Positions 1,185 to 27,450 of a stretch of DNA of 64,000 nucleotides are shown here, in pieces (position 1 is the first letter of the stretch; every line of letters starts with the position of its first letter). The notes under the pieces are model-generated. The model did not search any database. It worked only from the letters and a program-made list of their open reading frames with translations, and was not told the origin of the DNA. A program made the position numbers and the translations under genes. Source of the DNA: Singulisphaera acidiphila DSM 18658 (GTDB lineage: Bacteria > Planctomycetota > Planctomycetia > Isosphaerales > Isosphaeraceae); NCBI RefSeq assembly GCF_000242455.2, contig NC_019892.1:5652744-5716743 (forward strand). Reading direction: 5' to 3'.

Positions 1185-2444
1185 ATGATCGCCGCACCGA
1201 TCCCCCTGGACGATGCCGAACGCCTGGAGGCGCTCCGCTCTCTCGACCTCCTCGACACGGCTCCCGAAGAGCGATTCGACCGGATTACCCGCGTCTTGAG
1301 CCTCGTCATGGACGTTCCCATGGCGTACATCTCTCTGGTGGACTCCGACCGCCAGTGGTTCAAGTCATCGTGCGGATTGAGCAGGTCCGAGACGGCCCGT
1401 GACGTCTCGTTTTGCGGGCATGCCATTCTCTCGGACGAGCCGTTGGTGGTTCCGGACGCCGCCGAGGATGACCGGTTCTGCGATAACCCGCTCGTGATGG
1501 GCGACCCCTTCGTCCGGTTCTACGCGGGGTATCCGATCGCCGGGCCGGGAGGCCAGAAGGTCGGCACCCTCTGCATCGCCGACCATCGACCGAGGGACCT
1601 CGAGCCCGCGCAGCTCGAGATCTTCGGGGAGATGGCTCGACTCGTCGAACGCGAGCTTGGACTGACGGAGGTGGCTCACCTTCAACAAGAGCTGATCGCC
1701 AGCCAGCACTATCTGATGCGCGAGCTCTCCCAGGCGGCTGAGTATGTTCAAACGCTCTTGCCCGAACCGCTCGATGGGCAGATCCGGATCCGCTGGACGT
1801 TCCACCCCTCGTCGCAACTGGGCGGGGACTTCTTCGGCTACGACTGGATCGACCCCGACCACTTCGTGCTCTACCTGCTCGACGTCTCCGGTCATGGCGT
1901 CGGGGCCGCCTTGCTGTCGATCTCGGTGGCCAATGCCCTGCGCGGTCGGTCGTTGCCCAACACCGACTTCCGCGACCCGGCGATGGTGTTGGCTCGTCTC
2001 AACGACGCGTTCCCGATGGAGCGGCATGGCGAAAAATACTTCACGATCTGGTACGGGGTCTATGACCGCAAGAATCAGCGGTTGACCTATGCCAACGGTG
2101 GCCATCCCCCGCCGCTCTTGCTGTCGGGGCCGTCGGCCGACCGGACCTCACCCGTCGCGCTGAGCGTGGGGAATTTCGCCGTCGGGATCATTCCAGGGGT
2201 GGAATTTCACGCCGGTGTCGTGGCCTTGGATCGGTTCAGCAAGCTCTTCATTTTCAGCGACGGCGCTTACGAGATCAAGAAACCGGGCAGGTCGATGATG
2301 AGGCTGGAAGAGCTGATGGATTACCTTGCCTCAGTCCCCGGCCCAGGCGGTCCCGACGAGGTCTTGCGGTTTGCCCAGAAATACGGGGAATCCGATTCCC
2401 TCGCTGATGACTTCTCCTTGATCGAGGTGGATATCAGGGCGTGA
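1185..2444 (+). CDS. GAF domain plus SpoIIE-type PP2C serine phosphatase
   Basis: A 419-residue cytoplasmic signalling protein. Residues about 25-160 form a GAF domain (SLVDSDRQWFKSSCG, FCGHAILSDEPLVVPDA, YAGYPI, KVGTLCIADHRPR), of the type often found before phosphatases or diguanylate cyclases. A short helical linker follows at 160-190. The rest is a PP2C/SpoIIE catalytic domain with metal-binding GGDFF (about 213-217), DVSGHG (233-238), YANGGHPPPLLL and FSDGAYE. Proteins of this kind dephosphorylate serine or threonine on partner-switching regulators such as anti-anti-sigma factors. No such partner lies next door. The start is the ATG after GGAGG at 1176-1180; the frame is open further upstream but without a better ribosome site. 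Confidence 0.9.
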   Translation: MIAAPIPLDDAERLEALRSLDLLDTAPEERFDRITRVLSLVMDVPMAYISLVDSDRQWFKSSCGLSRSETARDVSFCGHAILSDEPLVVPDAAEDDRFCDNPLVMGDPFVRFYAGYPIAGPGGQKVGTLCIADHRPRDLEPAQLEIFGEMARLVERELGLTEVAHLQQELIASQHYLMRELSQAAEYVQTLLPEPLDGQIRIRWTFHPSSQLGGDFFGYDWIDPDHFVLYLLDVSGHGVGAALLSISVANALRGRSLPNTDFRDPAMVLARLNDAFPMERHGEKYFTIWYGVYDRKNQRLTYANGGHPPPLLLSGPSADRTSPVALSVGNFAVGIIPGVEFHAGVVALDRFSKLFIFSDGAYEIKKPGRSMMRLEELMDYLASVPGPGGPDEVLRFAQKYGESDSLADDFSLIEVDIRA

Positions 2445-2460
2445 GCAAACAAGGTCTCTC

Positions 2461-3498
2461 TTAGAACGGCAAGAGACGTCGGAACCCGTGCCCCAAGATG
2501 ATGGGATAGAGAGCGAGGTTGCGTACCAGCGCTGCGGTCACGGAATAGCTGGGCGAGCGACTCGATTGGCCGCTCCGCGCTTGCTCCAGATTCGCGGCCA
2601 GCGAGCGGAGATGCGACGGGCCGAAGGGACCGTCGTGGATCCGGTTGATGAGGTCCTTGGGCAGGTGCGATTCGCCGTGGAGCGCGCCGAGCCAGGCACC
2701 CAGGATCGCTCCGATGGAGTCGGTGTCTCCTCCTACAGCAATCGCTTCGCTGAGCGTGGAGAGGGGATCGTGGTCCTGACGCACGAAGCAGAAGGTGGCG
2801 AAGGCCAACGTGTGAACCACGTAGCCCGAGGTCCCGCACAACCGGGCCGCCGCGTCAGGGCTGACGCCGTCCAGAGCCAGTTCCCGCGCTCGATCAATGG
2901 CCTGGCCGAGCTCGGGATGCGTCACGACCTGGCGGGCCTCTTGCTGGCAGCTTGCGGCGGCCGTCCCCGGATTGCTCCGGGTGCAGGCGGCGGCCAGTTC
3001 GGCGACATAAAGCGCCCCTTCGATCGCCCTTTGATCCCGGTGGGTGACTTGAGCGAGTGCCCGCGCAAACGCGCGACGAGGCTCGGCCCGGTCGTGGAAG
3101 AAGGCCCCGACGATCGCGCTCCTCATCGCGGCCCCGTTCCCGGCCGACATCACTCCCGTCGGACGGATTCCGAACCCGATCCGAACGCAGGCGCGGACGG
3201 TCGCCAGGCCGACGCCCCAGGGGAGCCGGCAGAACCAGCCCAGAAGCGAGCGTCGGAAGGCCCCCACGCACCGCTCCAGATCCTCGGGGTGACGAATGAG
3301 ACTCTGAGCCACCAGGGCCGACTGCTCCGTGTCGTCCGAGACGAATCCGGTGCGACCCAGCAGGCGAAATCGATCCAGCCGCCCGAATCGCCTGGCGATC
3401 GCCCCCGCTGACATGCCCTCGGCCGGCAAGCCCAACGCATCACCAAGGGCCGTGCCCAGGAGCGTCCCCGCCAACCGATCGGCGATGTTCTGCGTCAT
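2461..3498 (-). CDS. ADP-ribosylglycohydrolase family protein (DraG-like), copy 1
   Basis: A 345-residue protein starting MTQNIADRLAGTLLGTALGD, the typical opening of ADP-ribosylglycohydrolases. These remove ADP-ribose from arginine or other acceptors using two Mg or Mn ions. Metal-binding motifs are visible: SDDTEQ near the N-terminus and AVGGDTDSIGAILGAWLGA near residue 280. SAGNGAAMRSAIVGAFF matches the GNGAAMR motif. The frame extends 83 codons further upstream, but that part is low-complexity and unlike the family, so the ATG at 3498 is preferred. The gene converges with the GAF-phosphatase gene, leaving only 16 bases between them. A second homologue lies at 33528. The target protein is unknown. 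Confidence 0.88.
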   Translation of the reverse strand: MTQNIADRLAGTLLGTALGDALGLPAEGMSAGAIARRFGRLDRFRLLGRTGFVSDDTEQSALVAQSLIRHPEDLERCVGAFRRSLLGWFCRLPWGVGLATVRACVRIGFGIRPTGVMSAGNGAAMRSAIVGAFFHDRAEPRRAFARALAQVTHRDQRAIEGALYVAELAAACTRSNPGTAAASCQQEARQVVTHPELGQAIDRARELALDGVSPDAAARLCGTSGYVVHTLAFATFCFVRQDHDPLSTLSEAIAVGGDTDSIGAILGAWLGALHGESHLPKDLINRIHDGPFGPSHLRSLAANLEQARSGQSSRSPSYSVTAALVRNLALYPIILGHGFRRLLPF

Positions 3499-25731: not shown

Positions 25732-27450
25732 CTATCGTGAGCGATCCGTTCCCCGATCGGACGGAAGGACCCAGAAGAGGAGTTGTGCCCAGCGGACGGT
25801 CATCCCCTTCTCGACGGTGGCGAATTGCCCGTCGACCCCGGGGATTGGCCAGCGGGCATAGTCCAACCTGCCGGTGACAGGGGTTACGATTCGGCAATGC
25901 GCGATCTGATTTTCGATCTTCGCCCGTTTGTCCTTCTCTCGTCTCCAGTCCAGTTCCCGAATTCGTTCTTCGGCGCGAGCCTGTTCAACCTCGCTCTGGA
26001 GCTCCTTGATCGTCATGATGGAAGTGTACGTCTCAAGCAAATTCTTTTTCCCCATCGCCTGTTCGTAGGCGAAGATCTTTTGGTCCAGCGCGATCTTGTC
26101 GGCGACGTTCCGATCTTTCGAGAGGTAGCCTTTGGCGCGCATTCGTTGGGACCATCCCAGCCGATCCTCTGCGCGTTCTCGTTCGGCCTCAGCCAGGCTG
26201 ATCTCTCCCTCGAGCGTCTGCAGTTCCTGCTTGTAGATCCCATCCTTATACTCGGCGACGGCAATCTCGGCGGTTTCACGCTGCCGCCTTGCTTTTTGAT
26301 AGGCAGCCTCGGCCCTCAATGTCGCGATCACCTGCTTGGCCAATTGATCTTTCAAATTCGCTGAGTCGAGCCGGCAAACCACATCGCCACGCCTCACCGT
26401 CGAACCATTGGGAGCGAGGAGGATGATCTTGGCGTCCGACTCGACGTCGCTGACGATCGCGACGGCGTTTGCCGGGCGCTGGTCTTCCGCAGTCCTCCCA
26501 GGGAGGTCGGAAGCGGGGCCTGTTTCGATCCTGCGATTCGACCTTTCCGCCTCGTCGCCGTGGCCGGCCTGTGCGAGGATTCCGACCCCGGCCGTCATCC
26601 CCAACGCAGCCAGCAGTCCGATGGCGACGAATTTCAGCTTGGTAAAAAGCATGGCTCTCAACGCTCCCCGGGACAGGGCGACTACCGACGCCGAGGCCAA
26701 CGTGGCCGCGGTCTGACCGCCCACGGCGAATGGCAAGGCAGAACGCACGGTTCTCTCGGCCAGGTGTGCGGGCACGACGAGTCGCGCGTCTGCCTTGAGG
26801 GCCGAACCGAGAAAGAGGGCGGCGGGAGCCAGCCCTCGGCGGGCCAATCTCCCCCTCAGTAGGTTTCGAGCCTGCGCCAGCCGCCCTTTGACGGTGCCGA
26901 CCGGCCACTGGAGTCGGTTCGCCGCCTCGGTGTGCGTGAGTCCTTCCAGGTCACAGAGCAAGACCGGCACGCGGTATTTTTCGGGCAATCGGCCCAGTTC
27001 GTCGTCCAGGGCCGCGAGGAGTTCCGCTCGTTCCGCGTCGGGGGCCGGAAACGCTGGTTCCCACGTGGTGGAGGAAGCGGTTTCGCGGGTTCTCCGCTTT
27101 TCGGCCAGGGTCCGTGCCCGGTGGGCCACCCGCCTGGCGACGCCGTAGAGCCATCGGCCCAACGAGTCGTCGACCCGCACGACGCCCGACTTGCGGACGA
27201 GGACCAGGAACGTAGCCTGGAATGCGTCCTCGACGTCGCGCGGGTCGTTCAAAGCACGGCGGCAGACTCCGAGGACCATCGGCCCATGGCGGGCCATCAA
27301 TGCCTCGAATGCGGCTTCCGCCGTGCTGGCCGCCCTGGTCGCGGCTCGGATCCGGTCCAGCAGTTGGGTGTCACTGAGCCCGGAGGGGGTCCCGGATGAG
27401 AACAGAGTGGAGAGATGCCTCAGACTGGCGGTCGACGTGTCGTTGGCCAT
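25732..27450 (-). CDS. ECF sigma factor fused to a membrane-anchored HlyD-like domain
   Basis: A 572-residue two-part protein. Residues about 47-113 are sigma-70 region 2 (AFEALMARHGPMVLGVCRR, DVEDAFQATFLVLV, GRWLYGVARRVAHRAR). Residues 151-205 are region 4 (LGRLPEKYRVPVLLCDLEG, VGTVKGRLAQARNLLRGRL). Residues about 271-294 form a membrane segment (KLKFVAIGLLAALGMTAG). The C-terminal 240 residues read like a membrane fusion protein. There is a first lipoyl half (IILLAPNGSTVRRGDVVCRL), a long coiled coil (about 363-515, Glu/Lys/Arg-rich) and a return strand (CRIVTPVTGRLDYARWPIPG). A transcription factor is thus joined to a periplasmic sensor or adaptor. ATG 27450 has GGAGAA upstream. The gene lies 136 bases past the DUF1080 gene. 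I do not see an anti-sigma gene beside it. Confidence 0.9.
   Translation of the reverse strand: MANDTSTASLRHLSTLFSSGTPSGLSDTQLLDRIRAATRAASTAEAAFEALMARHGPMVLGVCRRALNDPRDVEDAFQATFLVLVRKSGVVRVDDSLGRWLYGVARRVAHRARTLAEKRRTRETASSTTWEPAFPAPDAERAELLAALDDELGRLPEKYRVPVLLCDLEGLTHTEAANRLQWPVGTVKGRLAQARNLLRGRLARRGLAPAALFLGSALKADARLVVPAHLAERTVRSALPFAVGGQTAATLASASVVALSRGALRAMLFTKLKFVAIGLLAALGMTAGVGILAQAGHGDEAERSNRRIETGPASDLPGRTAEDQRPANAVAIVSDVESDAKIILLAPNGSTVRRGDVVCRLDSANLKDQLAKQVIATLRAEAAYQKARRQRETAEIAVAEYKDGIYKQELQTLEGEISLAEAERERAEDRLGWSQRMRAKGYLSKDRNVADKIALDQKIFAYEQAMGKKNLLETYTSIMTIKELQSEVEQARAEERIRELDWRREKDKRAKIENQIAHCRIVTPVTGRLDYARWPIPGVDGQFATVEKGMTVRWAQLLFWVLPSDRGTDRSR

Follow-up and report, generated by a model that had tools for sequence, protein, structure and literature searches.

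A fusion gene and the parts of its protein

The window (the whole stretch of 64,000 nucleotides analysed here) belongs to the 9.76 Mb genome of the planctomycete Singulisphaera acidiphila DSM 18658. On its minus strand, one reading frame is uninterrupted from an ATG at position 27450 to a stop codon at 25732-25734 and encodes 572 amino acids, confirming the single 572-residue frame of a preliminary description that had named no strand. The ATG, preceded by GGAG, is the likely start of the gene; a GTG 12 codons upstream is a possible alternative. As the preliminary description had also claimed, sigma regions 2 and 4, a membrane helix and a barrel-sandwich/coiled-coil adaptor module are found in this one protein by Pfam, hydropathy, AlphaFold and Foldseek. 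The features are as follows.

25735..27450, minus: protein of sigma factor, membrane helix and half-adaptor, 572 aa (stop codon 25732-25734; syntenic orthologue L099:7133-8848)
27112..27300, minus: sigma-70 region 2, residues 51-113 (Pfam PF04542, Sigma70_r2, 1.4e-8)
27262..27264, minus: Cys63, the sigma2 cysteine, invariant in 43/43 aligned sigma parts
26863..27015, minus: sigma-70 region 4, residues 146-196 (Pfam PF08281, Sigma70_r4_2, 1.5e-12)
26953..26955, minus: Cys166, the sigma4 cysteine, invariant in 43/43 aligned sigma parts
26572..26637, minus: membrane helix, residues 272-293 (hydropathy 2.2; net charge +3 before, -1 after)
overlapping the outer end of the membrane helix, minus: possible AQA↓G signal-peptidase-like site, residues 293-295
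26368..26463, minus: first lipoyl half (barrel-sandwich strands), residues 330-361 (AlphaFold, pLDDT >= 96 from residue 331)
25897..26361, minus: alpha-hairpin, helices 364-439 and 445-518 (AlphaFold pLDDT 97-98; Foldseek EmrA/HlyD/LipC)
26119..26154, minus: hairpin tip WSQRMRAKGYLS, residues 433-444, pump-adaptor-like (identity to the pump adaptor of the same genome)
25762..25893, minus: second lipoyl half, residues 520-563 (AlphaFold); the protein ends nine residues further

The gene is flanked by genes for a sulfatase, a DUF1501 protein and a 3-keto-disaccharide hydrolase. In Singulisphaera sp. GP187 the order DUF1501, sulfatase, fusion, 3-keto-disaccharide hydrolase is the same, and the orthologue has the same length and the same end. 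A frame or assembly error that joined two genes has practically no chance of being the explanation, because this independent genome carries a same-length syntenic orthologue, besides which about 30 further fusions were found. Chance origin of the pattern is excluded by homology, and the fusion protein is confirmed as real. The 136 bases upstream of the gene (window:27451-27586) are strongly conserved with GP187, including the block CAAAAAGTCAGATCC.TTCGCCGCAAACGTGCATGGA; despite this conservation, no canonical AAC...CGT ECF promoter was found upstream of the gene.

The sigma part is of the ECF type, with sigma-70 regions 2 and 4 and without regions 1.1 and 3 (Pfam, NCBIfam TIGR02937), and sigma-E is its Foldseek match. 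It is followed by the only hydrophobic helix of the protein (approximately residues 272-293). Hydropathy and charge predict that the sigma part is cytoplasmic and that the C-terminal part lies outside. Each of the 73 members sampled from the wider sigma family has a hydrophobic segment behind region 4.

The outer part was modelled by AlphaFold with pLDDT of about 97, as strands 330-361, two hairpin helices (364-439 and 445-518) of about 75 residues each, and strands 520-563. The lipoyl and coiled-coil fold, for which a structure prediction had been proposed as a check, is thus confidently modelled. Foldseek matches among solved adaptors are EmrA (1.5e-7), HlyD (3.8e-7) and LipC. Sequence families recover less: the HlyD part is invisible to Pfam alone, and a scan with NCBIfam gives a weak RND_mfp match over residues 324-572 (1.8e-5). 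When the protein and its relatives were aligned into a profile, this profile matched the solved MacA (4dk0) along the HlyD part with an E-value of 6.9e-14, and residues 332-559 share 50% identity with a genuine adaptor encoded in the same genome (L040:7354-9279), whose gene adjoins TolC-like, ATPase and permease genes. The protein therefore has the two lipoyl halves flanking an alpha-hairpin that are characteristic of membrane fusion proteins. However, the chain ends with residue 572, soon after its second lipoyl half; the beta-barrel and the membrane-proximal domain are absent, and no remnant of a decayed beta-barrel was found downstream of the stop codon. Hence the outer part is a half-adaptor: of the HlyD-like periplasmic module first described, the lipoyl and hairpin fold stands, but the module is only half an adaptor. 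The analysis also shows its descent from a MacA-like pump adaptor of its own lineage. Like the MacA-type adaptor L040:7354-9279, it has lipoyl halves, a long hairpin and a closely similar tip; unlike that adaptor, it carries an N-terminal sigma factor and has no adjacent pump genes.

No anti-sigma family was recognised among the seven neighbours scanned, four of which are without any Pfam match. A zf-HC2 match is also lacking within the window, and the whole genome holds only three zf-HC2 anti-sigma candidates. The earlier statement that no anti-sigma gene is adjacent holds on these counts. A pump ATPase, permease or TolC-like protein gave no tblastn match in the window, and a direct operon link between the fusion and a pump was not found. 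Pump or channel genes were likewise missing beside most of the tested fusions; near L039 and L131 the search gave no more than weak ATPase matches.

Relatives and repeated origin of sigma-HlyD fusions

The genome encodes about 40 paralogues with a common sigma and helix base and differing outer modules, including CarboxypepD_reg repeats, redoxin/thioredoxin-like domains, a weak PD40 match and HlyD. This set is probably ECF57-like. ECF57 factors have a conserved cysteine in sigma2 and another in sigma4, and the ECF57 model listed in the review comes from S. acidiphila (PMC8999054). Cys63 and Cys166 of the window protein correspond to these cysteines, and the long C-terminal extension, the genus and the lack of a recognisable adjacent anti-sigma gene are further likenesses. 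Unlike the window protein, the group is described there with WD40-like repeats and protein interaction, and a HlyD-type half-adaptor is not mentioned (PMC8999054). WD40-like repeats, a prevalent but not universal ECF57 trait, were not detected in the window protein by Pfam; the paralogue L049 has the weak PD40 match. ECF factors with C-terminal extensions, membrane-spanning ones included, were already known (PMC8999054), and it is the HlyD-type extension that would be novel. Our literature search, which did not extend to key ECF-classification and planctomycete papers or to most subscription papers, yielded no paper on HlyD-type ECF extensions and no experiment on any family member.

Other sigma-HlyD fusions were searched for, as the preliminary description had proposed, with a profile built from 13 fusions, and proteins spanning both the sigma and the adaptor part were counted. 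About 20 of the 45 Isosphaeraceae genomes contain them, as do two genomes from a second family of the same class; outside Isosphaeraceae this is an undercount, because the class-wide search scored three candidates per genome. A search of a plasmid collection returned only a distant sigma match. The window fusion is therefore not a one-off design, since about 40 paralogues share its base and sigma-HlyD fusions recur across the family.

Most of the fusions have a complete adaptor, and those scanned carry Pfam HlyD domains. Like the window protein, a second fusion encoded by this genome (L039:8585-10801, 738 aa) has sigma factor, helix and adaptor in one frame, as do the members of the main fusion clade. 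These fusions differ from the window protein by a complete, beta-barrel-containing adaptor (Pfam HlyD_D23, HlyD_3), by an altered hairpin tip and by a separate origin on the trees. At least two further groups, L115/L132/L133 and L149, also have half-adaptor fusions. In three genomes two sigma-HlyD fusions lie in tandem on the same strand (L101:4500-9288, L126:3129-7825, L129:2360-7163). A 549-aa fusion at L130:872-2518 (+) is overlapped by an open reading frame in another frame (2290-3126, +) that holds the adaptor remainder, which reflects either a frameshift or a true split. The fusions in the other family, L139:2970-5762 (+) and L140:3195-5375 (+), are of a more distant type, and their HlyD parts branch with distant fusions of Isosphaeraceae.

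The HlyD tree places the window protein and the GP187 orthologue among pump adaptors and free exported half-adaptors, apart from the main fusion clade, and in the cropped HlyD alignment the pump adaptors of the genus are their nearest non-orthologous rows. In the sigma tree, the window protein groups with moderate support with paralogues without a HlyD part. One common origin of 18 fusions was rejected in a cropped set without long branches (p = 0.017, which is moderate evidence because the group was chosen after the first tree). An independent fusion in the lineage of the window protein is the best reading of the trees, with caution because they contain long branches and the group was selected with a first tree in view. 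Several independent origins of sigma-HlyD fusions are supported by the trees. Free exported half-adaptors were observed in other genomes of the family (L105:2850-3911, +; L106:2729-3802, +; L117:3101-4048, -; L118:2413-3381, +), with a signal-peptide-like start and a lipoyl-hairpin-lipoyl arrangement without beta-barrel.

A pump-like hairpin tip

Between the window protein and the GP187 orthologue, identity is 86% in the sigma part and 68% in the HlyD part. The dN/dS values are 0.15 for the sigma part and 0.40 for the HlyD part, so both are under purifying selection; the matching region of the pump adaptor has 0.13.

The tip of the hairpin stands out from the rest of the HlyD part. Compared with the pump adaptor of the genus, the tip region (residues 422-466) is 69% identical and the rest 45% (p = 0.007), and the GP187 orthologue shows the same excess of tip over rest. 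In most pump adaptors of the family from other genera the tip is less conserved than elsewhere, and in the other sigma-HlyD fusions it is mostly changed and unlike that of pumps. Relative to the pump adaptor, the tip has roughly half the pN of the rest, whereas its pS in the GP187 orthologue is not reduced. This pS, although based on few synonymous sites (about 30), does not support a recent gene conversion from the pump gene to the tip, which is thus unlikely. Between the window protein and the orthologue, pN is 0.17 in the tip and 0.16 in the rest of the outer part; since the tip changed as fast as the rest, no tip-specific constraint is seen since the Singulisphaera species split. Judged from these comparisons, the tip is a lead to a partner related to a pump or channel, and it is not a proof of one.

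Possible function as a tethered sigma factor

In adaptors, the beta-barrel and the membrane-proximal domain face the inner-membrane transporter. As both are absent here, the half-adaptor most likely does not transport. The best reading, which carries about half of our confidence, is a sigma factor tethered to the membrane as a one-protein system, in which the outer half-adaptor would sense a partner in the envelope. The ECF sigma part would be held at the cytoplasmic side by the single helix, and the hairpin with its tip would dock on a partner, which may be an adaptor ring, a TolC-like channel or further copies of the protein itself. A change in this contact could release the sigma part through proteolysis in two steps or through a changed tethered state, and the freed sigma part would then start transcription of its regulon. 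We infer topology, partner, signal, release step and regulon alike. The genome encodes one RseP-like and three Prc-like proteins above the family cut-offs, which only make a proteolytic release possible.

A precedent for such a design is IutY (ECF243) of Pseudomonas putida, a fusion of sigma factor, transmembrane segment and periplasmic part for which release by Prc and RseP has been proven (PMC5411451). IutY has the cytosolic ECF sigma factor, membrane helix and periplasmic part on one polypeptide, as predicted for the window protein. Its outer part is a cell-surface-signalling anti-sigma domain that works with an outer-membrane receptor, whereas that of the window protein is an adaptor fragment; no receptor gene is seen beside the gene, and the Pfam scan found no FecR-type outer anti-sigma domain in the protein. 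In the related planctomycete Tuwongella immobilis, ECF factors were detected in Triton- or SDS-soluble fractions (PMC8567305), which agrees with membrane association.

Alternatively, the outer part might serve oligomerisation or tethering, with coiled coils or a lipoyl ring formed among its own copies that cluster or sequester the sigma factor, and no pump or channel would be sensed. Adaptors are known to oligomerise through their lipoyl and hairpin parts, no pump gene is adjacent, and most other fusions have a pump-unlike tip. Nevertheless, the tip is the most pump-like part of the outer module in both the window protein and its orthologue, and simple tethering needs no such tip. We regard this alternative as unlikely, although the strongest of those considered.

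It is tempting to speculate further on the sensing reading. A class of tethered sigma factors might read the assembly state of efflux machines by means of half an adaptor that mimics the pump's own one as a decoy: its hairpin would plug an adaptor ring or TolC-like channel, and one protein would turn this occupancy directly into transcription. This idea is speculative, and we hold it to be unlikely.

In a different scenario, the helix would act as an internal signal sequence, and signal peptidase would yield a membrane-bound sigma factor and a secreted half-adaptor. One frame would then give rise to two proteins, leaving the sigma part free of control by the outer part. The motif AQA↓G at the outer end of the helix (293-295), which is AKA↓G in the GP187 orthologue, fits this scenario, as do the free exported half-adaptors of equal truncated design (L105, L106, L117, L118). 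On the other hand, an AXA motif is not general (the hydrophobic segment ends in Ala in just 23 of 73 members), the segment has the full length of a membrane helix, and no fusion has lost the link to the sigma part. Such processing thus appears improbable.

Hardly convincing, and given very little weight by us, is the view that the HlyD part is a functionless passenger that remained after the genes had fused. Its evolution is faster than that of the pump adaptor (dN/dS 0.40 against 0.13) and its beta-barrel is lost, but its fold is intact and confidently modelled, its length and end are equal in GP187, it is under purifying selection, and the half-adaptor design is also found in L115, L132, L133 and L149.

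In large planctomycete genomes, dozens of ECF factors lack a recognisable anti-sigma partner, and the fusion family bears on the question of how these are controlled. The recruitment of adaptor modules on several occasions suggests a recurring wiring from the envelope to gene expression, and the pump-like hairpin tip offers one specific hypothesis on the partner that can be tested. Together, the window protein, its orthologue and the approximately 30 further fusions suggest that the sigma and helix base is a standard cytoplasmic end for varied outer modules. CarboxypepD_reg and redoxin/thioredoxin-like domains are usually extracytoplasmic. In the same genome, the paralogues L043, L045, L046, L048, L049, L051, L055 and L056 have CarboxypepD_reg repeats, redoxin/thioredoxin-like domains or weak PD40 matches behind their membrane helix, and each of them could be a separate envelope sensor.
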